IMG/VR virus record: IMGVR_UViG_3300046691_000179
Coordinates: 1-41,574 of that record
Strand: one strand, 5' to 3'
Source of the DNA: a virus
Length of the DNA: 41,574 nt
The notes under the pieces: generated by a model
Database searches by the model: none
Seen by the model: only the letters and a program-made list of their open reading frames with translations
What the model was told of the DNA's origin: nothing
Made by a program: the position numbers and the translations under genes
Part shown: in pieces, positions 9,146 to 41,574 of the stretch
Layout of the letters: each line of letters starts with the position of its first letter
Numbering within the stretch: the first letter of the stretch is position 1

Positions 9146-9355
9146 ATGAGTACTTGCCGGTGCGGACTAATCGTTCATGACGGAAATGCGATCGATATCG
9201 AGCGGCTGTATCGCGCTGCCGCCGATGGCGAACCTCGTCGCGAGATCCTTCAAATGATCTACGACATGTTCGGCAGCTCTTGCCAGCTCCGCCCCCCCCT
9301 CGACGAAATGCGGCTTGCCGATCGTTGCCAGCAGGGAAATCGGGCTCATGGCTAA
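9146..9355 (+). CDS. Hypothetical protein, 69 aa
   Basis: Small soluble protein with cysteines at the N-terminus (MSTCRCGLIV) and in the middle (SSCQL and DRCQQ), perhaps metal-binding. ATG 9146 lies 9 bases after GGAGGG. Its end overlaps the start of the beta-clamp gene by 8 bases, so the two are probably coupled. No family recognised. Confidence 0.55.
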   Translation: MSTCRCGLIVHDGNAIDIERLYRAAADGEPRREILQMIYDMFGSSCQLRPPLDEMRLADRCQQGNRAHG

Positions 9356-10496
9356 GCGGCAGACCTATTTCCGCGTCCACCGCAGTCAGCTCCTGCCGGC
9401 GCTCGATGCTGTCTTTGAGGCGGTCGACAAGCGCGCCAAGATCCCGATCCTCGGCAATGTGTTGCTACGTCCCGAAGGCGATGATCTCCGCCTGCGCGCC
9501 ACGGATCTCGACATCGAGATCGAGACCGGTTGCGAGCTTATGGAGATAGTCGAGGCCATGGCCTTTACCGTCAAGGCAGCCGACCTGCGCGACATTGTGC
9601 GCAACCTTCCCGAATCTGCCGAAATCGAATTCATGCAAGGCTCCTATAACGGTCAGATCCGTATCAGCTCAGGCCGCGCCGGTTTCTCGATTTTCAGCCT
9701 GCCCGAGAGCGATTTCCCGTCGATGGCTTCGGCACTCAAGGGCAAGTCTTTCGAGATCTCCATGCCCGAGGTGACGACAGCCATCGCTAAAGTGGCGCAC
9801 GCGGTTCAGACCAGCGAAATCGGCCGGCCGTGGATGATGGGCATCTATATGCACCCGATGGAAGATGAGCGCATCGGCATTGCTGCGCTCGATGGCATCA
9901 GCCTTGCCGCCGTGCAGATCCGCACGGGACAACTTCTCGATTTCCCCGGCATCATCATTCCGCTGAAAACGGCGACCGCCATCCGCAAGCTGTTCGGCGA
10001 AGTGACTGAGCCGGCGAAGATCGAGATCGGCGAGAACCTGATGCGGATCGAGTGCGCCGGCGTCACGCTCCTATCGAAGTTGATCGACGGCATTTTCCCG
10101 TCCGGCTACCTGACTGCCGCACCTGCGGACTACGAGCGCGAGATCTTCGTAACTGTGGCCTCGATGAAGGCCGCCGTCTCGCGTGTCTGCCTGGTGGCCA
10201 CCGAAACAGGCAAGGACGGCATCAAGCTCACTCTTGAGCGGGATCTGATGCGGGTAGAACTGTCGAGCCGCGAAGGCGAGTCGGCGGTCGACTATGTGCC
10301 GATCCAGTACGAGGGCGACACTGGTTTTTCCATCGGCCTAAACAACAACGCGTTGCGCGAGCTGCTGTCCGCGATCGGCACACAGGATGCCATCATCCGT
10401 TTTGGCGGCTCACTGCCCAATGCCGTTTTCTATCCGTCTATCGGCACCAACGAACTTTACGTCATTTCACCCATGAACGCGCGGGGTGCTGAGTGA
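9348..10496 (+). CDS. dnaN: DNA polymerase III beta subunit (sliding clamp)
   Basis: 382-residue phage-encoded beta clamp, close to the bacterial length of about 370. The sequence follows the family through all three repeated domains: VHRSQLLPALDAVFEAVDKR with KIPILGNVLL at the start, RATDLDIEIE, LPESDFP, DGISLAAVQI, and ending near LPNAVFYPS. It would encircle DNA and tether a polymerase during phage replication or recruit host Pol III. ATG 9348 lies after GCAGGG; an in-frame ATG at 9315 would give 11 extra residues. Together with the DnaQ-like gene it gives the phage two Pol III-type functions. Confidence 0.9.
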   Translation: MAKRQTYFRVHRSQLLPALDAVFEAVDKRAKIPILGNVLLRPEGDDLRLRATDLDIEIETGCELMEIVEAMAFTVKAADLRDIVRNLPESAEIEFMQGSYNGQIRISSGRAGFSIFSLPESDFPSMASALKGKSFEISMPEVTTAIAKVAHAVQTSEIGRPWMMGIYMHPMEDERIGIAALDGISLAAVQIRTGQLLDFPGIIIPLKTATAIRKLFGEVTEPAKIEIGENLMRIECAGVTLLSKLIDGIFPSGYLTAAPADYEREIFVTVASMKAAVSRVCLVATETGKDGIKLTLERDLMRVELSSREGESAVDYVPIQYEGDTGFSIGLNNNALRELLSAIGTQDAIIRFGGSLPNAVFYPSIGTNELYVISPMNARGAE

Positions 10497-11044: not shown

Positions 11045-11143
11045 CATCTGGTGGCAAGTCATCGTCGCATCCCTCGCCTGGGCAGCCTTTGCGATCCTCA
11101 TCGCGCTGATGCCCATCATCTCTCGCAAATGGAGAAACCGGAA

Positions 11144-12472
11144 ATGAGTCGAATTTATCTGGCGTCATCATGGCGCAACCAATACCAACCGGATGCCGTC
11201 GCGATGTTGCGGGCCGCCGGCCATGAAGTCTACGACTTCCGCAATCCGCCCAATGGTATTCCGGGCTTCGCCTGGTCGGAAATCGATCCTGAATGGAAGG
11301 CGTGGAAAGCTTCGCAATATCGCGATCTATTGACAACGCACCCGATCGCTGCGCGCGGATACATGAACGATTTTCGCGGGATGGAGTGGGCCGATACCTG
11401 CGTGCTTCTGTTGCCTTGCGGCCGATCAGCTCACCTTGAAGGTGGCTGGTTTGCCGGTCGCGGCAAACGCCTGATCATCTGGACACATGACGGTGAAGAG
11501 CCGGAGCTGATGGCGCTTATGGCAAATCACATCGTCACGAGCGGCGAGGAACTGCTCTGCGCGCTTGGCAATGGCGCACCCCGTCACAGCGCAAGCCAGA
11601 AGGAGCGCGGCGTATCGAGTATTCGCATAACACGGCCAGATCCTACAGTCTCGATCCTCGTCGCTACCGCAGCGAACGCTATCTCGATCCGCTCCGGAAC
11701 CGTGATCGAGACCGATGACCGTCGGTATCGCTTCGAAACCGATACAGTCGTCAGCCATGGTGACCTGGCGCCGGGACATGATTATGGCATCGGCTTCGAC
11801 CAGACCGGAAACCCCATCGCTATTCCCGCCACATTCAATCCGCTGGAGTCCGGCTTGTTCGCCGGTTTCCATTTCGCTCCGGGCGGATGCGCAGAAGCGC
11901 GCAGCGGTGGGGATACTGTCTCAGCCATCAATCCCTTTTCGCTCTGGGATCTCGACTTTCGTCCCAATTGCCCAGATCCGCGCGGCATGACCTTGGTCGA
12001 AAAAGACGACCATCGGTTCTGGGCCGACATATATCTTCTTGGCACGAACCACAAAGAGCAGGGTACAAGCCGGCATGGCGCCGAGATAGCCGATGGCAAC
12101 TCCTTACCGGTCCTCGATTATCGTACTGCCGTCGACATTTATGCCGACCATGGCAAGCGTCTCCTGGCCTATGACGAATTCCAGACAGCCGCCTTCGGCA
12201 CCACCGAACAGTCATCCGCCGATCACGACCCCAAATCGACCGGCCTCGACGCAGCCCGCACCAGCCGCGTCGGCCTAATGCAGGCGACCGGCAATCTCTG
12301 GGTCTGGGGTACGGACGGTGATCCCGACGACCCGCGCCCGTCGCTCTTCGGCGGATCGTGGCTCGACGGCTCGGACGCCGGCTCCCGGTGCGCGCACTTG
12401 GTCTACTGGCCGGAGAGCTCGAACGAGAGCGTCTCCGCGCGCGGCGGCAGCGACCACCTGAACCTTGCTTAG
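11144..12472 (+). CDS. DGR target protein 1: nucleoside deoxyribosyltransferase-like domain fused to a variable C-type-lectin-like domain
   Basis: 442-residue fusion. Residues 1-142 match phage nucleoside 2-deoxyribosyltransferase-like proteins: RIYLASSWRN (Tyr5), GHEVYDFRNP, EWADTCVLLLPCGRSAHLEG with the putative catalytic Glu99. From about residue 158 to the end it is homologous to the next gene: beta-rich NPFSLWDLDFRP, DPRGM, FWADIYLLGTNH, TGLDAARTSRVGLMQATGNL and the variable tail FGGSWLDGSDAGSR. That half is the CLec/formylglycine-enzyme-like fold used by DGR targets. The frame is open through the junction, where AGGAG (11601-11605) may be the relic of a former ribosome site. ATG 11144 follows GGAG. 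Confidence 0.85.
   Translation: MSRIYLASSWRNQYQPDAVAMLRAAGHEVYDFRNPPNGIPGFAWSEIDPEWKAWKASQYRDLLTTHPIAARGYMNDFRGMEWADTCVLLLPCGRSAHLEGGWFAGRGKRLIIWTHDGEEPELMALMANHIVTSGEELLCALGNGAPRHSASQKERGVSSIRITRPDPTVSILVATAANAISIRSGTVIETDDRRYRFETDTVVSHGDLAPGHDYGIGFDQTGNPIAIPATFNPLESGLFAGFHFAPGGCAEARSGGDTVSAINPFSLWDLDFRPNCPDPRGMTLVEKDDHRFWADIYLLGTNHKEQGTSRHGAEIADGNSLPVLDYRTAVDIYADHGKRLLAYDEFQTAAFGTTEQSSADHDPKSTGLDAARTSRVGLMQATGNLWVWGTDGDPDDPRPSLFGGSWLDGSDAGSRCAHLVYWPESSNESVSARGGSDHLNLA
12334..12454 (+). repeat. DGR variable repeat VR1
   Basis: 121-bp repeat at the 3' end of target gene 1, matching the template at 13889-14009. I count 11 mismatches, of which 10 are at template adenines (changed to C, G or T) and one is at a template C near the left edge. 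Encodes residues about 398-437. The 14-base all-G/C tract at 12435-12448 corresponds to the initiation-of-mutagenic-homing region of known DGRs. Confidence 0.93.
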
Positions 12473-12491
12473 CCAGCGCGAAAGCGCGGGC
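12472..12491 (+). other. GAAA-loop hairpin downstream of VR1
   Basis: Starting in the stop codon, GCCAGCGC-GAAA-GCGCGGGC forms a stem of 7 pairs with one A-G mismatch and a GAAA loop, 18 bases after the repeat. Hairpins or cruciforms of this size with a four-base GAAA-type loop are known to promote retrohoming at VR in the Bordetella phage DGR. None is present at the template. Confidence 0.8.
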
Positions 12492-12524
12492 CTGATTTCC
12501 CAACCGTTTCAAAGGACCAAGATC

Positions 12525-13457
12525 ATGACGGCAGCAGTCGAACTTAAGCAGACTACTATTCACATCCACCGCACCGACCTCGCATATCCCATCCTCGTCG
12601 CCGGTGGCCACACCGCAATCGCCATCCGGGCCGGTACGGTGGTCGAGACCAAGGGCCAGACATACGCCTTTGATGCCGACACTCCCGTTACTCTCGGCGA
12701 GCTGGCGCCAGGACAGGACTATGGCGTGAGCATCGGTCAGGACGGAAAACCCTTCGCTGATATACTCGGGCCACCGAACCCGCTGGACGAAGGGTGGTTT
12801 GCCGGTTTCCATTATGCGCCAGGTGGCTGCGCCGTGGGCAACGCCGGTGGCGATACCATCCCGGCGATCAATCCATTCTCATTATGGGATGTCGATTTCC
12901 GACCGTCCTGCGCCGATCCGCGCGGCATGGCGCTGATCGAGACGGATGGAGGAAAACGCTTCTGGGCTGACATCTATCTGCTTGGCGCCGACCATCACGA
13001 ACACGGCACCAGCCGATACGGCGCAGTCATTGCCGATGGACGTGACCCGCCGATCCGCACCGATGGCAATGGAAAATACGCCAAGCTCGACTACGCCACG
13101 GCTGTCGAGATCTATGCCCACCACGGCAAGAAGCTGCTCGGCGCCGAGGAGTTCTTTGCCGCCGCCTATGGCGTCAAGGAGCGTTGTTCCCGCGGCAAGG
13201 AGCCGACCGTTACCGGCGCACTGGATGATGGTGCCGAGCGCTTCATCAGCAAGCGCGGCCTTTTCGATGCGACCGGAACTATGTGGCAATGGGGCACTGA
13301 CGGCCACCCCGACGACCCGCGCCCGTCCTTCTTCGGCGGGTCGTGGCTCGACGGCTCGAGCGCCGGCTCCCGGTGCGCGGTCTTGGGCGACTGGCCGGGG
13401 CTCTCGAACGGGAGCCTCTCCGCGCGCGGCGGCAGTGACCACCTGAATCCTGCTTAG
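12525..13457 (+). CDS. DGR target protein 2: variable C-type-lectin-like protein
   Basis: 310-residue paralogue of the C-terminal half of the preceding protein, without the deoxyribosyltransferase domain. Shared landmarks are RAGTV, LAPGQDYGVSIGQDGKP, FAGFHYAPGGCA, NPFSLWDVDFRP, DPRGM, FWADIYLLGADHHEHGTSR, the helix HGKKLLGAEEFFAAAYG and the variable tail FGGSWLDGSSAGSR...SARGGSDH. The last 45 residues form the ligand-binding face in such proteins, with variable positions displayed on a stable lectin fold. ATG 12525 follows AAAGGA. The ligand is unknown; no signal peptide is seen, so it would reach the cell surface only as part of a particle or by another route. Confidence 0.9.
   Translation: MTAAVELKQTTIHIHRTDLAYPILVAGGHTAIAIRAGTVVETKGQTYAFDADTPVTLGELAPGQDYGVSIGQDGKPFADILGPPNPLDEGWFAGFHYAPGGCAVGNAGGDTIPAINPFSLWDVDFRPSCADPRGMALIETDGGKRFWADIYLLGADHHEHGTSRYGAVIADGRDPPIRTDGNGKYAKLDYATAVEIYAHHGKKLLGAEEFFAAAYGVKERCSRGKEPTVTGALDDGAERFISKRGLFDATGTMWQWGTDGHPDDPRPSFFGGSWLDGSSAGSRCAVLGDWPGLSNGSLSARGGSDHLNPA
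13319..13439 (+). repeat. DGR variable repeat VR2
   Basis: 121-bp repeat matching the template. I count 17 mismatches, 15 of them at template adenines; the two others are a T to G and a C to T. Identical outcomes to VR1 occur at template positions 13917, 13920, 13945 and 13984, while others differ. The G/C-only tract is at 13420-13433. Confidence 0.93.
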
Positions 13458-13476
13458 CCTGCGCGAAAGCGCGGGC
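13457..13476 (+). other. GAAA-loop hairpin downstream of VR2
   Basis: GCCTGCGC-GAAA-GCGCGGGC forms an 8-pair stem with one G-T pair and a GAAA loop, at the same distance from the repeat and stop codon as the VR1 hairpin. Conservation of both fold and position supports a role in target recognition. Confidence 0.8.
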
Positions 13477-13503
13477 CATTCCTGAAACGGACGATCGCCA
13501 ATC

Positions 13504-13881
13504 ATGACACGCGACGAACATGTGAACGCCCATGACCTGGCGATCGTCGAAAAATACGAGGCAGCTGTGACCTATCTCTATCCGATCATCCAGAATTGCC
13601 CGCGCCGCCATGCGACGCTGCGCGACCGGCTGATCGGACTGATCTTCGACCAGGTCGGCCTGCTTTATCAGGCCGCGAAATCGAAGCAGGCTTCGCGGCT
13701 TTATGCAGCGGACGCCAATCTGGCGACGCTGCGTTTCTGGCTACGCTTCGCGGCCGATCCCAAGCTGAAGGTCATCTCACACCGCCAGCATGCGGTAGCA
13801 CTGCGCTATCTCGCTGAAGCGGGAGCGATGCTCGGCCAATGGATCAAGGCTTCGAAGGGTAACGGGAGGTCGGGGTTATGA
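13504..13881 (+). CDS. avd: DGR accessory variability determinant (Avd)
   Basis: 125-residue basic helical protein between the second target gene and the reverse transcriptase, the usual Avd place. The C-terminal half matches the family: DANLATLRFWLRFAADPKL, then RYLAEAGAMLGQWIKASK. Avd is a four-helix-bundle protein that forms a pentamer, binds the reverse transcriptase and template RNA, and is required for mutagenic retrohoming in the Bordetella phage. Its stop overlaps the next ORF start as ATGA. The ribosome site before ATG 13504 is weak. Confidence 0.88.
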   Translation: MTRDEHVNAHDLAIVEKYEAAVTYLYPIIQNCPRRHATLRDRLIGLIFDQVGLLYQAAKSKQASRLYAADANLATLRFWLRFAADPKLKVISHRQHAVALRYLAEAGAMLGQWIKASKGNGRSGL

Positions 13882-15200
13882 CGTTTTGGCGCCCGTCCAT
13901 CTTCGGCGGATCGTGGATCAACGGCTCGAACGCCGGCTCCCGGTACGCGAACTTGGACTACTGGCCGGAGAACTCGAACGAGAACATCTCCGCGCGCGGC
14001 GGCAGCGACGACCCTTTTCAGGCTCGGCGATGGTCAAGGCCACGTCGGCCATCTTCCACGGACGCAGCGGCGATCTCGCCCCTCGCGTCAGGGTGGTCGG
14101 CCCGACCGTCCGGCTTCGGCGAATACATTGCAAGGTCCGGTACAGCGGGGAGTAGCGGCGATTCTGCCGTCGAAACCCGCGACCGGCATCTGGAGATAGA
14201 TGTCTTGGGAAAGAAGTTTAGAAACCTTATCGGCCCCATCACTGCGGACGCGAACATGCGGCACGCCTTCCGTATGACGTCCCTCGGCAAGCGCCTGACG
14301 CCCGGCTTCCTTGAGTTCAAGGAATTCTCGGCTCTCAATTTGGCCGACCTTGGCGCGGCGATGCGCGATGGTTCGTATCGGCCAGGCGCACCACAGGAGT
14401 TCCGGATATTCGACCCGAAAGAACGGCTGATATCGGCACTCCCGTTCAAGGATCGCATTGCCCAGCACGCGCTTTGCGCGGTGATTGGGCCGATCTTCGA
14501 GGCTACGCTTCTTCCGAACGCCTATGCTTGCCGCGCCGGCAAAGGAACACATGCCGCCGCGATCGCGGTGCAGGCCGACATGCGACGCCTGACGCGCGGC
14601 GGCGAGCCGCTCTATGTCCTCAAGACGGATTTCTCGCGATACTTCGCCAGTATCGAACATGGGGCGCTCTGGCGACTGATCGAGGCGAAGATTTCCTGCC
14701 GTGGCACGCTACGGCTGATCGAAACGATGTTGCCGCGTGATGGTATCGGGATCCCGATCGGGAACCTCACATCGCAGATCTTCGCGAATGTCTACGGCGG
14801 CGTTGTGGATCGCCACCTCCAGCAGGATCTCGGCGAGCGCTACTGGTATCGCTACATGGACGATATCGTTGTGCTCGGTCATTCCCTGGACCATCTGCGG
14901 CGGGTGCGGACATCGATCGAGGATCTGTCGCGCGACCGTCTTGGCCTGCGGTTTTCCAAATGGAGCATTCAGCCGGCAGGGCGCGGCGCGAACTTCGTCG
15001 GCTATCGCATCTGGCCGACACATAAACTGCTGCGCCGTGACAGCGTCGTGCGGGCCAGACGCAAGATCGCGATCTATCGCGCAGTCGGAGAGCACGAGCG
15101 GCTGGAGAAGTTTCTGGCGGCGTGGACCGGGCACGCAAGCTGGGCTGACAGCAGAAATCTGATGAAGAGCATGGGACTTCCAGCGAAAGGTCGCGCCTGA
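13878..15200 (+). CDS. DGR reverse transcriptase
   Basis: RNA-dependent DNA polymerase that copies the template RNA with adenine-specific errors. Motifs, numbered from ATG 13878: SALPFKDRIAQHAL, KTDFSRYFASI (Asp251), GIPIGNLTSQ (the DGR form of motif 4, xGxxxSQ rather than QGxxxSP) and YMDD (326-329). The ORF is 440 residues, but its first 45 codons are the template repeat and the next 60 look unconserved. TTG 14205, preceded by GGAG 9 bases upstream, would give 331 residues, near the usual DGR enzyme length. ATG 13878 overlaps the Avd stop as ATGA. Which start is used is unresolved; the catalytic domain from about 14211 is clear. Confidence 0.93.
   Translation: MTFWRPSIFGGSWINGSNAGSRYANLDYWPENSNENISARGGSDDPFQARRWSRPRRPSSTDAAAISPLASGWSARPSGFGEYIARSGTAGSSGDSAVETRDRHLEIDVLGKKFRNLIGPITADANMRHAFRMTSLGKRLTPGFLEFKEFSALNLADLGAAMRDGSYRPGAPQEFRIFDPKERLISALPFKDRIAQHALCAVIGPIFEATLLPNAYACRAGKGTHAAAIAVQADMRRLTRGGEPLYVLKTDFSRYFASIEHGALWRLIEAKISCRGTLRLIETMLPRDGIGIPIGNLTSQIFANVYGGVVDRHLQQDLGERYWYRYMDDIVVLGHSLDHLRRVRTSIEDLSRDRLGLRFSKWSIQPAGRGANFVGYRIWPTHKLLRRDSVVRARRKIAIYRAVGEHERLEKFLAAWTGHASWADSRNLMKSMGLPAKGRA
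13889..14009 (+). repeat. DGR template repeat TR
   Basis: Donor copy of the 121-bp repeat, invariant by design, just after the Avd stop and inside the 5' end of the reverse transcriptase ORF. It holds 23 adenines, 16 of them changed in at least one variable repeat. Several are in AAC codons, which cannot mutate to stop codons at the first two positions. The G/C-only tract is at 13990-14003; the sequence then diverges from the variable repeats at 14010, and no GAAA hairpin follows. Confidence 0.93.
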
Positions 15201-38045: not shown

Positions 38046-38118
38046 GGGAAAAAAATCTCTACGTGAGGGGGACGCGGGTCTAGGGCGGCGGCGGTTCCAG
38101 ACTTTCGACCGCCCCCCC
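38046..38118. other. Noncoding gap before terS, possible cos/pac region
   Basis: Seventy bases of very G- and C-rich, polymeric sequence (G-tracts and a run of eight C). The GGGCGGCGGCGG at 38083-38094 partly resembles the lambda cosN half (GGGCGGCG identical). It is next to the terminase genes, where a cos site is expected, but I cannot show it. Confidence 0.3.
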
Positions 38119-38355
38119 CTACCGCCGTGGGGGAGGTGGCCGATCGCCGTCCATCGCGGCTTCGATGTCGGCGGGCCTGTCGATCTCCTGGAGATCTTCG
38201 ATGGTGGCGTCGCGCCACTCGGTCGCGTCGAAGGTGACGTCCCGTCCGGGCCGTGGGCACGTGAAGAAGGTGGATGCTTTGAAAGTGTGCTCCACCTGCA
38301 GAACGAGACGTCGTCGCCAACCCAGGCGATATCGGTATCTGCCTGTCAGGGCCAT
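38119..38355 (-). CDS. Small phage protein, 78 aa, next to the terminase
   Basis: MALTGRYRYRLGWRRRLVLQ, then TFFTCPRPGRDVTFDATEWR and DATIEDLQEI. Basic N-terminus, acidic C-terminus. Similar small proteins with GxxRRRLVLQVE occur beside terminase genes in many phages; function unknown. Starts 4 bases after the HNH stop. Confidence 0.65.
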   Translation of the reverse strand: MALTGRYRYRLGWRRRLVLQVEHTFKASTFFTCPRPGRDVTFDATEWRDATIEDLQEIDRPADIEAAMDGDRPPPPRR

Positions 38356-38359
38356 TACG

Positions 38360-38728
38360 TCACCAACGAGCCTGAGCCCGTTCCTCTTTCTGTTTCAGCT
38401 TGTCGTGGCATGGCTTGCACAGGCATTGGAGATTGCTCTCATCCCAGAACAACGCCTCGTCACCGTGGTGCGGTATCTTGTGGTCGGCAACCAGTTGCGA
38501 CGTATCAGCCTCGATGCGACCGCATCCGCTCATCTGGCAGGTGAAGAGATCACGCACCAGCACGACCATGCGCAGCTTCTGCCAACGTGATGTCTTGTAC
38601 CACTTGCGCCAACCGACGTTGCGGTCACGATCACGGAAGCGCTGGGCTTCCGCCTCTTCCCTCGACATGGTGGCAATACGAGCGCCCAATGTCTTCAGTC
38701 GTGGTGTTATGGAGGAGAGCCTGCCCAT
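38360..38728 (-). CDS. HNH endonuclease near the terminase
   Basis: 122 residues. The HNH core is QMSGCGRIEADTSQLVADHK, then CLCKPCHDKLK, with two CxxC-type zinc pairs. HK97-like phages need an HNH partner of this type for terminase cutting at cos. I choose ATG 38728, preceded by AAGAGA, rather than ATG 38770. Confidence 0.85.
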   Translation of the reverse strand: MGRLSSITPRLKTLGARIATMSREEAEAQRFRDRDRNVGWRKWYKTSRWQKLRMVVLVRDLFTCQMSGCGRIEADTSQLVADHKIPHHGDEALFWDESNLQCLCKPCHDKLKQKEERAQARW

Positions 38729-38792
38729 ATCTCTTAAGACGACAAAGGCGACCTCTCGGCCGCCTGTCATCGTCTCATAGCTTTCGCACTGG

Positions 38793-38868
38793 CCCTGAAT
38801 CGGTGCCTCCCTATTGAGGCTGTCAGGGCGGGGTCCGACCGGTGTACCGACCCCGGAACTTTCGTTCC
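38793..38868 (-). promoter_or_regulatory. Multi-hairpin leader upstream of the late operon
   Basis: On the minus strand the intergenic stretch holds, in order, GGAAC-GAAA-GTTCC (38868-38855), a 7-bp stem CGGGGTC/GACCCCG with 13-base loop (38855-38829), and a 6-bp stem (TCAGGG/CCCTGA, 38828-38793) enclosing a second hairpin GCCTC/GAGGC. It follows a NusG-like gene. Candidate antitermination or attenuator element. Confidence 0.55.
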
Positions 38869-38933
38869 CACCAGCTACGGCGTTCTCAGGGGCTCACTAC
38901 GGGATCATCGGATAATCCGTGGCAGATTTGTAC

Positions 38934-39572
38934 TCACACCTTCTCGACGATTGCAAGAGGCATCAGCACCGGCGTCATGCCGCCGAAGACACCCATCTCG
39001 ACGACAGCGTCACCCTTGCCGTCGTCCCTGCACGAGATGATCTTTCCAACGAACGAGGCGAATGGTCCTTCATTCACGCGCACCGTCTCGCCCGCTTTGA
39101 AGATGACGGTCGGGCGCTCCCAATCCAGTGATCCGTCATCTGCCAACGCCTTGAATCTGTTGACCTCGTCATTCGAGATCGGGCGTGGATCGATGCAGCC
39201 GCCAAGCACGCCGATGACGTGATCCATACCTCGAATCCCTAGGAAAGCATCATCGCTCGGCATGAAGCGAACAAGCACATAGCTCGTCATAGCGGGGATC
39301 AATCGGGCCGGCATGACACGTCCCCTGCGTCGATATTCAGGCCCTTTTCGCATCGGCACGACAGCTTCGACGCCGACATCATCCAGGGTGTTTTTCACAG
39401 TTATCTCCCAACCGGACATCACGCGGATAGCAAACCAGGGCGAATCATCGCTGGCGCGAACCGTTGCGGCTGGCAGCAAGCCTTCCCTGATTCGGCGCAT
39501 GCGATCGTCAAACCGCTCACCCATACCAACCGCAATCGGAGCGCCGTCCAATTTATCATGCTGCATCGTCAT
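38934..39572 (-). CDS. NusG-family transcription antiterminator
   Basis: 212 residues. The NGN domain is visible as PWFAIRVMSGWEITVKNTLD and SYVLVRFMPSDDAFLGIRGM; the KOW motif follows in FKAGETVRVNEGPFASFVGK. The order NGN-linker-KOW is that of NusG/RfaH/LoaP-type factors. Sits at the end of the early leftward genes, just before the multi-hairpin leader and the late operon, so it probably lets RNA polymerase read through the late genes. ATG 39572 is preceded by GAGG and overlaps the previous gene by 17 bases. Confidence 0.82.
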   Translation of the reverse strand: MTMQHDKLDGAPIAVGMGERFDDRMRRIREGLLPAATVRASDDSPWFAIRVMSGWEITVKNTLDDVGVEAVVPMRKGPEYRRRGRVMPARLIPAMTSYVLVRFMPSDDAFLGIRGMDHVIGVLGGCIDPRPISNDEVNRFKALADDGSLDWERPTVIFKAGETVRVNEGPFASFVGKIISCRDDGKGDAVVEMGVFGGMTPVLMPLAIVEKV

Positions 39573-40764
39573 GGCCCGCCTCGCTGATTGTGGAGAGAAA
39601 CGCCGTCAACGCATCCTCGACGGCCTGGTCTAAGTCGTTTGCGTTCGGATCGATCGGCGGGAAGTAGGTCCACTCCGGCACGAATTCGATGAACGGCCAA
39701 CCTCTGCGCTCGTGTAACGCCGCCCAAGCATCGATGATCTGGCGGTCGTTGATATGGTGGGCGCCCTGAAATTCAGAAACGAGCAGCAGCAGATCCAGCG
39801 AGGTAACGAACGGCTCCTTGCGCCGCGCCATGTCGCGCATGGTGGTCACCAGCGGCCAGCCGTGCCCAAGGCGCTTGCTGTGCACCAGTGCCTCCCTGGT
39901 GGTCCTTCCAGCCGCGATCTCGCGCTCGTCGAACGTGGTGAAGATGATGCGGCCCTTGGGCTCCCTCGAAAGCGCCGCCAGTCGCGTGCCCATCCAGAGC
40001 TTGCCGCAGACCTTGGCAATGCCGCGCGTCGGCGCTGCCGTCACCTCTTCGGGCACATCGCGCCAATGGCGGTTCTTGAGGTAGACCGCAGCCGCCATGA
40101 TGTCTTCCGGCTTCGCCCAGCGCAGATATGCCGGGGTTCGCTCGACGCATTCGGCGCGCTCTTCCGGCGACAGTGCAAACCACGAATTTCGGGCGAAATC
40201 GACATCGCCCTTTTTCCAATTGGCGTACCAGAGCGTGAAATCGCGTTCGATCTTCTTTCGATCAGATCGCTTCAATCCTCCCTCTTCCGCGACAGCGCCC
40301 GCTTGGTGGGAGTCAGTATTTTTTAAGTAATCAGTATTTACTAGTGTCGGATTCACCGGCGACGGCGGAACCGGCGACGGCAATGCCGTCGCCGGCAAAT
40401 CCGTCTGCGGTAGAAATGCAACACTTTCGCGCTCGCTAACATTTTCAACGCGTTCGGCGTCGCGCGGCTCATCAAAGATCACCAGCACGGATGCGCCGAA
40501 CTTGCCGTCCGCGCGCTGCTGCTCGCGCTCTGCGTAGCCGAACTTCACCAGCTCGGCTACCATCCCGCGCGCCTTGTCGCGGCCGCAGCCACCGCGCTTG
40601 CAGATGTCGCCAATGACGACAGTCCAGTTGTCCGGCTTCGAAAGCAGGTAGCTCAGCAGCCACCGCGCCTCCATGGAAAGCCGACTGTCCTCGAAGACGT
40701 GATTGGGGATGGCCGCATAGCGCGCGTTGCGCACCCCGCGCCGTATGGTTGCCTCCTGGCTCAT
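39556..40764 (-). CDS. Winged-helix replication protein (O-like, putative)
   Basis: 402 residues. Residues about 10-90 form a winged helix-turn-helix of the phage replication-initiator type: AIPNHVFEDSRLSMEARWLL, then IGDICKRGGCGRDKARGMV. The middle is Pro-rich; the C-terminal half (from about 170) is a second helical domain, LWYANWKKGDVDFARNSW. Such proteins bind the origin and recruit the helicase. ATG 40764 overlaps the methyltransferase stop as ATGA; the longer ORF upstream is a shadow. Confidence 0.7.
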   Translation of the reverse strand: MSQEATIRRGVRNARYAAIPNHVFEDSRLSMEARWLLSYLLSKPDNWTVVIGDICKRGGCGRDKARGMVAELVKFGYAEREQQRADGKFGASVLVIFDEPRDAERVENVSERESVAFLPQTDLPATALPSPVPPSPVNPTLVNTDYLKNTDSHQAGAVAEEGGLKRSDRKKIERDFTLWYANWKKGDVDFARNSWFALSPEERAECVERTPAYLRWAKPEDIMAAAVYLKNRHWRDVPEEVTAAPTRGIAKVCGKLWMGTRLAALSREPKGRIIFTTFDEREIAAGRTTREALVHSKRLGHGWPLVTTMRDMARRKEPFVTSLDLLLLVSEFQGAHHINDRQIIDAWAALHERRGWPFIEFVPEWTYFPPIDPNANDLDQAVEDALTAFLSTISEAGHDDAA

Positions 40765-41574
40765 GCCGCCATCCTTTCCGGCACTGCCATGTGATTGCAG
40801 TTGGCGGCGACCAGCGCGGCGGCGACGGGCGGCGATACGCTGTTGCCGACGCATGACACCTGCACCGATTTCGAGAAGACATTCCCGTTCACATCGCGAT
40901 CGATGACGTAATTCCGGGGGAAGCCCTGCGCGTTGTAGAGTTCTCGCGGCGTCAGCATCCGCATGCCGATGTCGACGATGACGAAGGTGATGCCGTCGAA
41001 ATCGATCGTCACGAACTCGCGCTCGTCCCAAAGGCCATGCGAGCGCATGAAGTCCGCTACTTGGCGCGCACGAGCCGCCTGTGCCTCCGTGAAGGGCGGC
41101 ACGCCTATCACGGCCTCGACATGACCGAACCTGTCTCTGGTCGTCACCGTGCGGCATGGCTCGTCCTCGCAACCGCCATCCCCTATCCCGTAGTAAGATT
41201 GCAGGTATGGCATAACCAACTGGCTCTTGCCCTGCCCGTCCGCCATGATGGTGCCCGATGGCACGTCGATCGCATGACCGGTCGAAGTCCCGAACTGGCG
41301 CGCGACGTAGGCGGAGACCAATTGCTGATGGCTACCGCTCTGCGTAATGGTCGACGCGGCCTCGTCCATCGGCCTACCCGGATTGACGCCTCCTACACGG
41401 CGACTGTCGTTGTTGTGCTGGGCCATGAAAGCGCACAGAACCGCGTTCTGATCCTTGTCGCTGGCCGTTATCGTGTGGGCCTGTCCGTCGACCGGTCGGC
41501 ATGACCCGCCCTGCTGCGCATAGGTCAGAACTGGCGCCAGCAATCCGAGAGGGGCGGCGCCACCTGGTCGTTTG
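40761..41574 (-). CDS. DNA cytosine-5 methyltransferase, C-terminal part
   Basis: Continuation of the gene starting at 1206 and read across the circle junction; the stop is at 40761. Motif IX/X region: MRMLTPRELYNAQGFPRNYV, then CVGNSVSPPVAAALVAANC, the ending of m5C methyltransferases. The variable target-recognition domain lies before it, with repeated S-T-I-type segments (AASTITQSGSHQQLV, PSGTIMADGQGKSQLV). Joined length about 630 residues; bases 41448-41574 duplicate 1-127. Confidence 0.92.
   Translation of the reverse strand, partial: KRPGGAAPLGLLAPVLTYAQQGGSCRPVDGQAHTITASDKDQNAVLCAFMAQHNNDSRRVGGVNPGRPMDEAASTITQSGSHQQLVSAYVARQFGTSTGHAIDVPSGTIMADGQGKSQLVMPYLQSYYGIGDGGCEDEPCRTVTTRDRFGHVEAVIGVPPFTEAQAARARQVADFMRSHGLWDEREFVTIDFDGITFVIVDIGMRMLTPRELYNAQGFPRNYVIDRDVNGNVFSKSVQVSCVGNSVSPPVAAALVAANCNHMAVPERMAA
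41448..41574. repeat. Direct terminal repeat, right copy
   Basis: Exact copy of 1-127; see the left copy. Count only one when measuring genome length. Confidence 0.9.

Follow-up and report, generated by a model that had tools for sequence, protein, structure and literature searches.

A phage-borne NusG paralogue and the covarying RNA element behind its gene: a candidate antitermination switch for the late genes of temperate Rhizobiaceae phages

The viral DNA analysed here (the window, 41,574 nt, corresponding to the whole record IMGVR_UViG_3300046691_000179) carries between its early and late leftward genes a gene for a NusG paralogue, directly followed by a conserved structured RNA element and an intrinsic-terminator-like hairpin. 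It is highly probable, in our view, that paralogue and nascent-RNA element together switch on the late genes by a processive antitermination specific to the phage. Direct support from the data exists for the family assignment of the protein, for the structured RNA, for the strict linkage and co-divergence of gene and RNA, and for the terminator and the order of the genes. The positions of the features are given in Table 1.

The record is a circular assembly with a 127-bp direct terminal repeat (1-127 and 41448-41574), and a C5-methyltransferase gene spans its ends. Pfam and PHROG searches identified an integrase, CI- and CII-like regulators as well as terminase, portal, capsid and tail genes, and the record reads as a temperate tailed phage. 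The early leftward block is ordered CII, MTase/ParB, PAPS reductase, C5-methyltransferase (across the record ends), Rep and the NusG-like gene. It is followed in the same direction by HNH, a small terminase-like gene, TerL, portal, protease, capsid and further genes up to the tail fibres at about 19.75 kb. About 21 kb of late genes in one direction had been predicted; the direction was confirmed, while the block from HNH to tail fibre extends from 38.73 down to 19.75 kb and thus measures about 19 kb. The start codon of the HNH gene is likely the ATG at 38728 and not the listed start at 38770, since the latter is situated upstream of the terminator and the ATG is preceded by AAGAG and lies 18 nt past the terminator stem. 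Between the HNH and small terminase genes, where a cos site is expected, a C-run is followed by a G-run (38107-38140). The rightward block of this temperate siphovirus-like phage contains a DNA polymerase processivity factor-like gene (9315-10493, +). A diversity-generating retroelement (11051-15197, +) with Avd, reverse transcriptase and an Rfam Phage_DGR RNA (14063-14187) was also found, and a tandem pair of tail proteins beside it, both assigned to PHROG 11262, are its candidate targets.

Table 1. Features at the early-late junction of the window, listed in the direction of transcription.
Feature	Position	Strand	Basis or remark
Replication initiation protein (Rep) gene	39556..40812	-	PHROG 270, E=7e-31; overlaps the nusG-like gene
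NusG paralogue (NGN-KOW, 212 aa, P0001), proposed late antiterminator	38934..39572	-	Pfam, PHROG, predicted structure
TTGCAA, conserved TTG motif inside the nusG end, candidate late-promoter -35	38951..38956	-	Conservation
Conserved structured RNA element (~156 nt), proposed recruitment/antitermination RNA	38776..38931	-	Alignments A2 and A3 with covariation
P1, 5' strand TCCGAT	38907..38912	-	Pairs with 38834-38839
Hairpins H2 (CGCC/GGTG) and H3 (GGAAC-GAAA-GTTCC) inside the junction	38855..38882	-	Two-sided changes on A3
P1, 3' strand GTCGGA	38834..38839	-	Pairs with 38907-38912
P5 stem-loop (outer GCCCTGA/TCAGGGC, inner GCCTC/GAGGC)	38792..38829	-	Found in all architectures
3' module AGTGC-N4-GCTATG, near-invariant	38776..38790	-	One exact occurrence in the window, 0.01 expected
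Intrinsic-terminator-like hairpin GGCGGCC-GAGA-GGTCGCC with T-rich tail	38747..38764	-	Strict terminator scan
First late gene, HNH endonuclease	38360..38728	-	HNH Pfam, E=4e-6; start re-assigned to 38728

The NusG-like open reading frame matched Pfam NusG (PF02357) with 52 bits at a cut-off of 22.2 (E=1e-13) and PHROG 6386 ('transcription antiterminator'), and the gene, which overlaps the end of Rep, is the last of the early leftward block. The AlphaFold2 model (mean pLDDT 84, residues 1-17 disordered) consists of an NGN plus a KOW domain, and its best PDB matches in Foldseek were NusG-family structures. The KOW domain (residues 163-211) was predicted as beta-strands, although such a prediction may miss fold switching. 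Judged from sequence and model, the protein is a member of the NusG superfamily with an NGN domain and a C-terminal KOW domain, and Pfam, PHROG, the predicted fold and the gene order agree with the original prediction that an NGN-KOW protein closes the early leftward genes. All four curated NCBIfam models scored below their cut-offs: housekeeping NusG (TIGR00922) with 67.8 of 135.7 bits, UpxY (NF033644) with 53.6 of 100, LoaP (NF033641) with 43.1 of 125 and RfaH (TIGR01955) with 17.7 of 144.5. Of the RfaH/LoaP-type factor that had been proposed, the NusG paralogue was therefore retained, but not the assignment to RfaH or LoaP. In the tree, 28 host NusGs formed a single tight clade on a branch of length 1.3, separate from the phage NusGs; two rows labelled host wrongly are a phage copy of genome G001 (L140) and a long, poorly filled row (L158). 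When phrog_6386 was searched over the order, most matches were housekeeping NusG. A rhizobial-type NusG together with the element was also observed in 'Nostoc phage Nsp-JY10' (L085, PP395642.1), which the tree places among Rhizobiaceae phages, and Nostoc as its named host may be doubtful.

Folding of the window sequence alone was marginal (MFE -61.2 kcal/mol, z = -1.84, 12 of 200 shuffles equally good) and too weak as proof of the hairpins, so that a comparison with relatives was needed. The covariance model R1 detected a sole copy in the window (E=8e-43, R1 E-values being rough because of a short calibration), and Rfam 15 gave no match over the element at gathering score. The element comprises a long-range closing helix, internal hairpins and a near-invariant 3' end. 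RNAalifold, applied to a plain MAFFT alignment (62 distinct sequences), recovered P1 as GCUGAU/GUCAGC in one group and as UCCGAU/GUCGGA in the other, with two pairs changed on both sides in 19 of the 62 sequences (GC to UA, UA to CG). In this alignment 95.6% of the cells were paired and 101 two-sided changes were counted, compared to 32.8 after shuffling and at most 21 after sliding. Two-sided changes were found in the diverse set A3 at all six pairs of P1, at 3/3 pairs of H2 and at 4/4 pairs of H3. When 66 diverse matches were aligned to R1, which makes this alignment lean towards that model, 96.5% of the cells were paired, two-sided changes occurred at 26 of 31 pairs, and two-sided cells numbered 280, compared to 72 after shuffling and at most 33 after sliding. 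The predicted hairpins after the NusG gene are thus real by comparison with relatives, and their place was given correctly; the lower bound of 38793 was not, as the element reaches 38776 and the intrinsic terminator lies beyond. Since the consensus energies of the two strands were nearly equal (-16.3 for the reverse complement, -16.7 for the sense strand), the strand was assigned by counting G-U and A-C cells, and the excess of the former on the transcribed strand (108 versus 19) indicates that the structure belongs to the RNA of the coding strand. The helix P2alt (GGGGTC/GACCCC), which is part of the window's own MFE structure, was rejected because it is broken in most relatives, with 23-31% pairing at three positions; P1 plus P2 were taken instead. 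Several architectures of the element were distinguished, namely the window type of about 155 nt, the Rivra type of 117-121 nt and another of 170-179 nt, and P1, P5 and the 3' module are common to them.

It had also been suggested to look for the same hairpins after NusG-like genes in related phages, and they were found across Rhizobiaceae phages and prophages. The nine relatives identified first (47-87% protein identity) have the downstream stretch in common. The core 18-mer of the element occurred in 75 IMG/VR stretches, all with a NusG-like gene directly upstream except for chance matches in coding DNA and cut contigs. A degenerate pattern of the 3' module was present in at least 120 viral stretches; in 76 of 83 newly read loci a NusG frame ended 117-179 nt upstream, and as the other seven comprised six loci cut at the locus edge and one chance match, all 76 evaluable loci carried the gene. 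Prophage loci gave the same picture from both sides: the RNA was present at 17/17 NusG-anchored loci of named Rhizobiaceae genomes, and NusG at 31/32 RNA-anchored loci, nearly all from 297 Rhizobiaceae genomes. The exception (L136, 1501-1651) is a weak, AT-rich match at which a NusG remnant was looked for and not found; it is either a decayed copy or a chance match. The gap between the nusG stop codon and the element was 0-3 nt at all 96 Rhizobiaceae phage and prophage loci with a resolved frame. Cultured phages carrying both NusG and RNA are phi3LM21, Rivra, PPF1, Mse-P1 and Nsp-JY10, and a blastn search of 50,697 phage records gave credible element matches only in records holding the closest NusG relatives. 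RNA carriers made up 32/297 genomes of the family sample, 2/297 of the order sample and 1/385 of the class sample, the carriers in the latter two being genomes already known to hold the RNA; the RNA appears confined to Rhizobiaceae. An element of 82% identity was additionally observed on the 50-kb Sinorhizobium medicae plasmid NZ_CP140896.1 (9091-9289), possibly a phage-plasmid, and single genomes held three (G002) or two (G116) copies, presumably in several prophages.

Gene and RNA were also found to diverge together. The distance matrices of element and NusG correlated with a rho of 0.72 over 75 non-redundant loci, a value reached by 0/500 permutations, and the corresponding rank correlations were -0.07 between element and Rep and -0.02 between NusG and Rep (Rep frames checked by eye). 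At the 25 loci with a homologous TerL, the correlation was 0.57 for element and NusG and -0.14 for element and TerL. Close neighbours have been shuffled while the NusG protein and the RNA have not, and the gene-RNA pair is a module. Its boundary is marked by Rep, which varies in sequence independently of both nusG and the RNA. Adjacency could explain part of the co-divergence of element and NusG; yet Rep, which overlaps nusG, does not co-diverge.

A strict scan of the 130 nt past the element detected an intrinsic terminator at 63 of 96 non-redundant loci, in most cases 10-45 nt behind the element, compared to 0.7/96 in shuffled sequences and 26/1440 in random stretches of the same loci. About one third of the loci were without a strict terminator; some of these were near-misses on the T tract, and a few showed none. 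At one locus (L113) a tRNA gene-like sequence, recognized by reading, lies just past the element in the terminator's place. The distance from the terminator stem to the start codon of the first late gene is 18 nt in the window, and the annotated late genes of Rivra and phi3LM21 likewise begin at most 20 nt from the stem, which leaves little room for a promoter between the terminator and the first late gene. A first late gene behind such a terminator can be reached only by read-through, unless there is a promoter that overlaps the latter. The late region contained no excess of further terminator-like sites, so that long processivity may not be required.

The mechanism we infer follows from this anatomy, in which the paralogue is the last early product and is succeeded by the RNA, the terminator and the late genes; binding, antitermination and timing belong to the inferred part, as does the origin of the late transcript, be it early read-through or a promoter overlapping the nusG end. 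The NusG paralogue would be produced last from the early operon, and RNA polymerase would next transcribe the RNA element, which starts at the stop codon of nusG. Once folded, the nascent RNA would recruit the paralogue to that same polymerase. There the NGN domain would bind the beta'-clamp at the site otherwise taken by NusG, and the RNA may remain attached to the polymerase. Thus modified, the polymerase would pass the terminator that lies immediately 3' of the element and continue through the late operon of about 19 kb. Before the paralogue has accumulated, polymerase would halt at the terminator and the late genes would be off. The switch would thereby do for this phage what Q, pR' and tR' do for lambda, from the same place in the genome, but by a LoaP-like protein-RNA principle. 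Processive antitermination by a NusG paralogue at an element of this junction, as originally proposed, thus keeps its place as the best account, now on much stronger evidence.

For the place of the antiterminator gene in the genome, the precedent is lambda Q. In both systems this gene ends the early operon and is followed directly by a terminator and then by the late genes. A late promoter in its last part is possibly a further common feature, for which a conserved TTG and no consensus -10 were found here. In contrast to lambda, the phage protein has the NusG fold and not the Q fold, and its target shows strong RNA covariation instead of being a DNA site only. Q loading is among the matters described in PMC7171158. 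LoaP binds to a hairpin of a leader RNA and suppresses the intrinsic terminator after it (PMC12691694). The LoaP system with the dfn/mln leader hairpin of Bacillus resembles the present one in combining a NusG paralogue, a specific leader RNA structure, a terminator just downstream and a very long target operon (PMC12691694), and by analogy the architecture fits, with RNA binding and read-through as predictions. The phage protein differs by its low score against the LoaP model, the RNA by being a multi-helix structure of 110-180 nt whereas that of LoaP is one small UNCG hairpin, and the pair by being phage-borne, in Rhizobiaceae, with the RNA directly after its own gene. RfaH is likewise a NusG paralogue for long foreign operons, and its ops site contains a GC-GGTA-GC stretch with a C3:G8 pair in the non-template strand (PMC5995543). 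The GC-N4-GC of the 3' module is shaped like it, which is to be taken as a lead only; the low RfaH score and a target that covaries as RNA set the phage system apart, and so may the KOW domain predicted as beta-strands, since that of RfaH is alpha-helical in its autoinhibited form. Either the RNA or the DNA form of AGTGC-N4-GCTATG could be the one that is recognized. The original prediction had left both an RNA and a DNA target open, and since the helices covary and G-U outnumber A-C cells on the transcribed strand, a LoaP-like RNA target is favoured over a DNA target of the RfaH/ops kind. GafYZ controls the Caulobacter gene transfer agent by antitermination (PMC11150451) and is comparable as an alphaproteobacterial phage-like late cluster under such control, but GafZ is described as being without similarity to known anti-terminators and its proposed loading is at a promoter DNA element (PMC11150451).

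Among the alternatives, a late promoter overlapping the nusG end deserves most attention. The absence of a strong late promoter had been noted, and no consensus promoter was found between 37.5 and 41.6 kb; the claim may nevertheless be wrong, as a conserved TTG is a -35 candidate. In the window this TTG is located 20-18 nt before the nusG stop, and in element-aligned loci it was found at most 2 nt from a fixed place in 73/75 cases (other fixed offsets: mean 1.6%, maximum 19%). It is kept whatever amino acids are encoded, across six dipeptide contexts (LA, IA, VA, LE, LV, ID) and in L134, where TTGACC lies inside an unrelated peptide. The leucine codon of PLA near the nusG end is almost always CTT (codon-identity excess 0.76), and CTT accounts for 19% of the leucine codons elsewhere in these nusG genes. 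The TTG resembles a -35 from which transcription would start near the 5' end of the element; the element would then be the 5' leader of a late transcript, with the paralogue recruited much as lambda Q, loaded by a DNA motif and early pausing with help from the RNA. Against this, no consensus -10 was detected downstream (score 3.81, shuffled 3.87), and the TTG could have another role. We regard this variant as a serious, if somewhat doubtful, possibility; it departs from the antitermination reading given above mainly in the start site and the loading step, and its likelihood overlaps with that of the latter and is not additional to it. Two other readings of the site were discarded: boxA, which the conserved TGCCTCTTGC before the nusG stop resembles, because outliers retain just TTG (ATTGC, GTTGC, CTTGA and the TTGACC of L134), and sigma54, because the -12/-24 spacing does not fit.

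The remaining explanations account for parts of the data. If element and terminator merely ended the early operon and fed back on nusG, with a late promoter further downstream, a terminator at the operon end and an element in the nusG 3' UTR would be expected, but the short distance from stem to late start in the window, Rivra and phi3LM21 speaks against it and a plain terminator needs no covarying RNA that tracks NusG; we find this quite unlikely. Antitermination by the RNA alone, acting on polymerase as HK022 put does and leaving the paralogue another or an additive role, would suit a large, conserved phage RNA that borders the late operon upstream and has a near-invariant 3' end before the terminator, and put RNAs, likewise cis-acting upstream of an operon and its terminators, work without protein factors (PMC9378689). 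However, put has about 70 nt and two stem-loops (PMC9378689), different in size and helices from the 110-180 nt found here, and the near one-to-one linkage and co-divergence with NusG are unexpected for a protein-free element, which makes this explanation very unlikely. A cos or pac element, conserved by its nearness to the terminase genes, is hardly credible: the element does lie close to HNH and terminase genes, where cos sites occur, but its G-U tolerance is that of a one-strand RNA, it follows NusG and not TerL, and the Rivra record was opened downstream of HNH and not at the element.

No description of a NusG paralogue-RNA system of this kind and no late gene control mechanism for temperate Rhizobiaceae phages were found in the open-access literature. 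On balance, we lean towards the more specific proposal that a NusG paralogue has taken the place of lambda Q, is loaded by its own large RNA of several architectures, which would be kept in the antiterminating complex, and moves with it between Rhizobiaceae phages as a cassette. If this is true, a structured RNA family absent from Rfam would be gained, a phage-borne lineage would be added to the NusG paralogues RfaH, LoaP, UpxY, ActX and TaA (listed in PMC12691694), and the dozens of co-diverged protein-RNA pairs would represent a natural experiment on the way in which NusG paralogues acquire specificity for an RNA. Being compact, the gene-RNA pair could also serve as a portable antitermination tool. 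Finally, temperate Rhizobiaceae phages would have a mechanism of late gene control, and in their hosts, the root-nodule and crown-gall bacteria, the pair looks like a new on-switch for virion genes.
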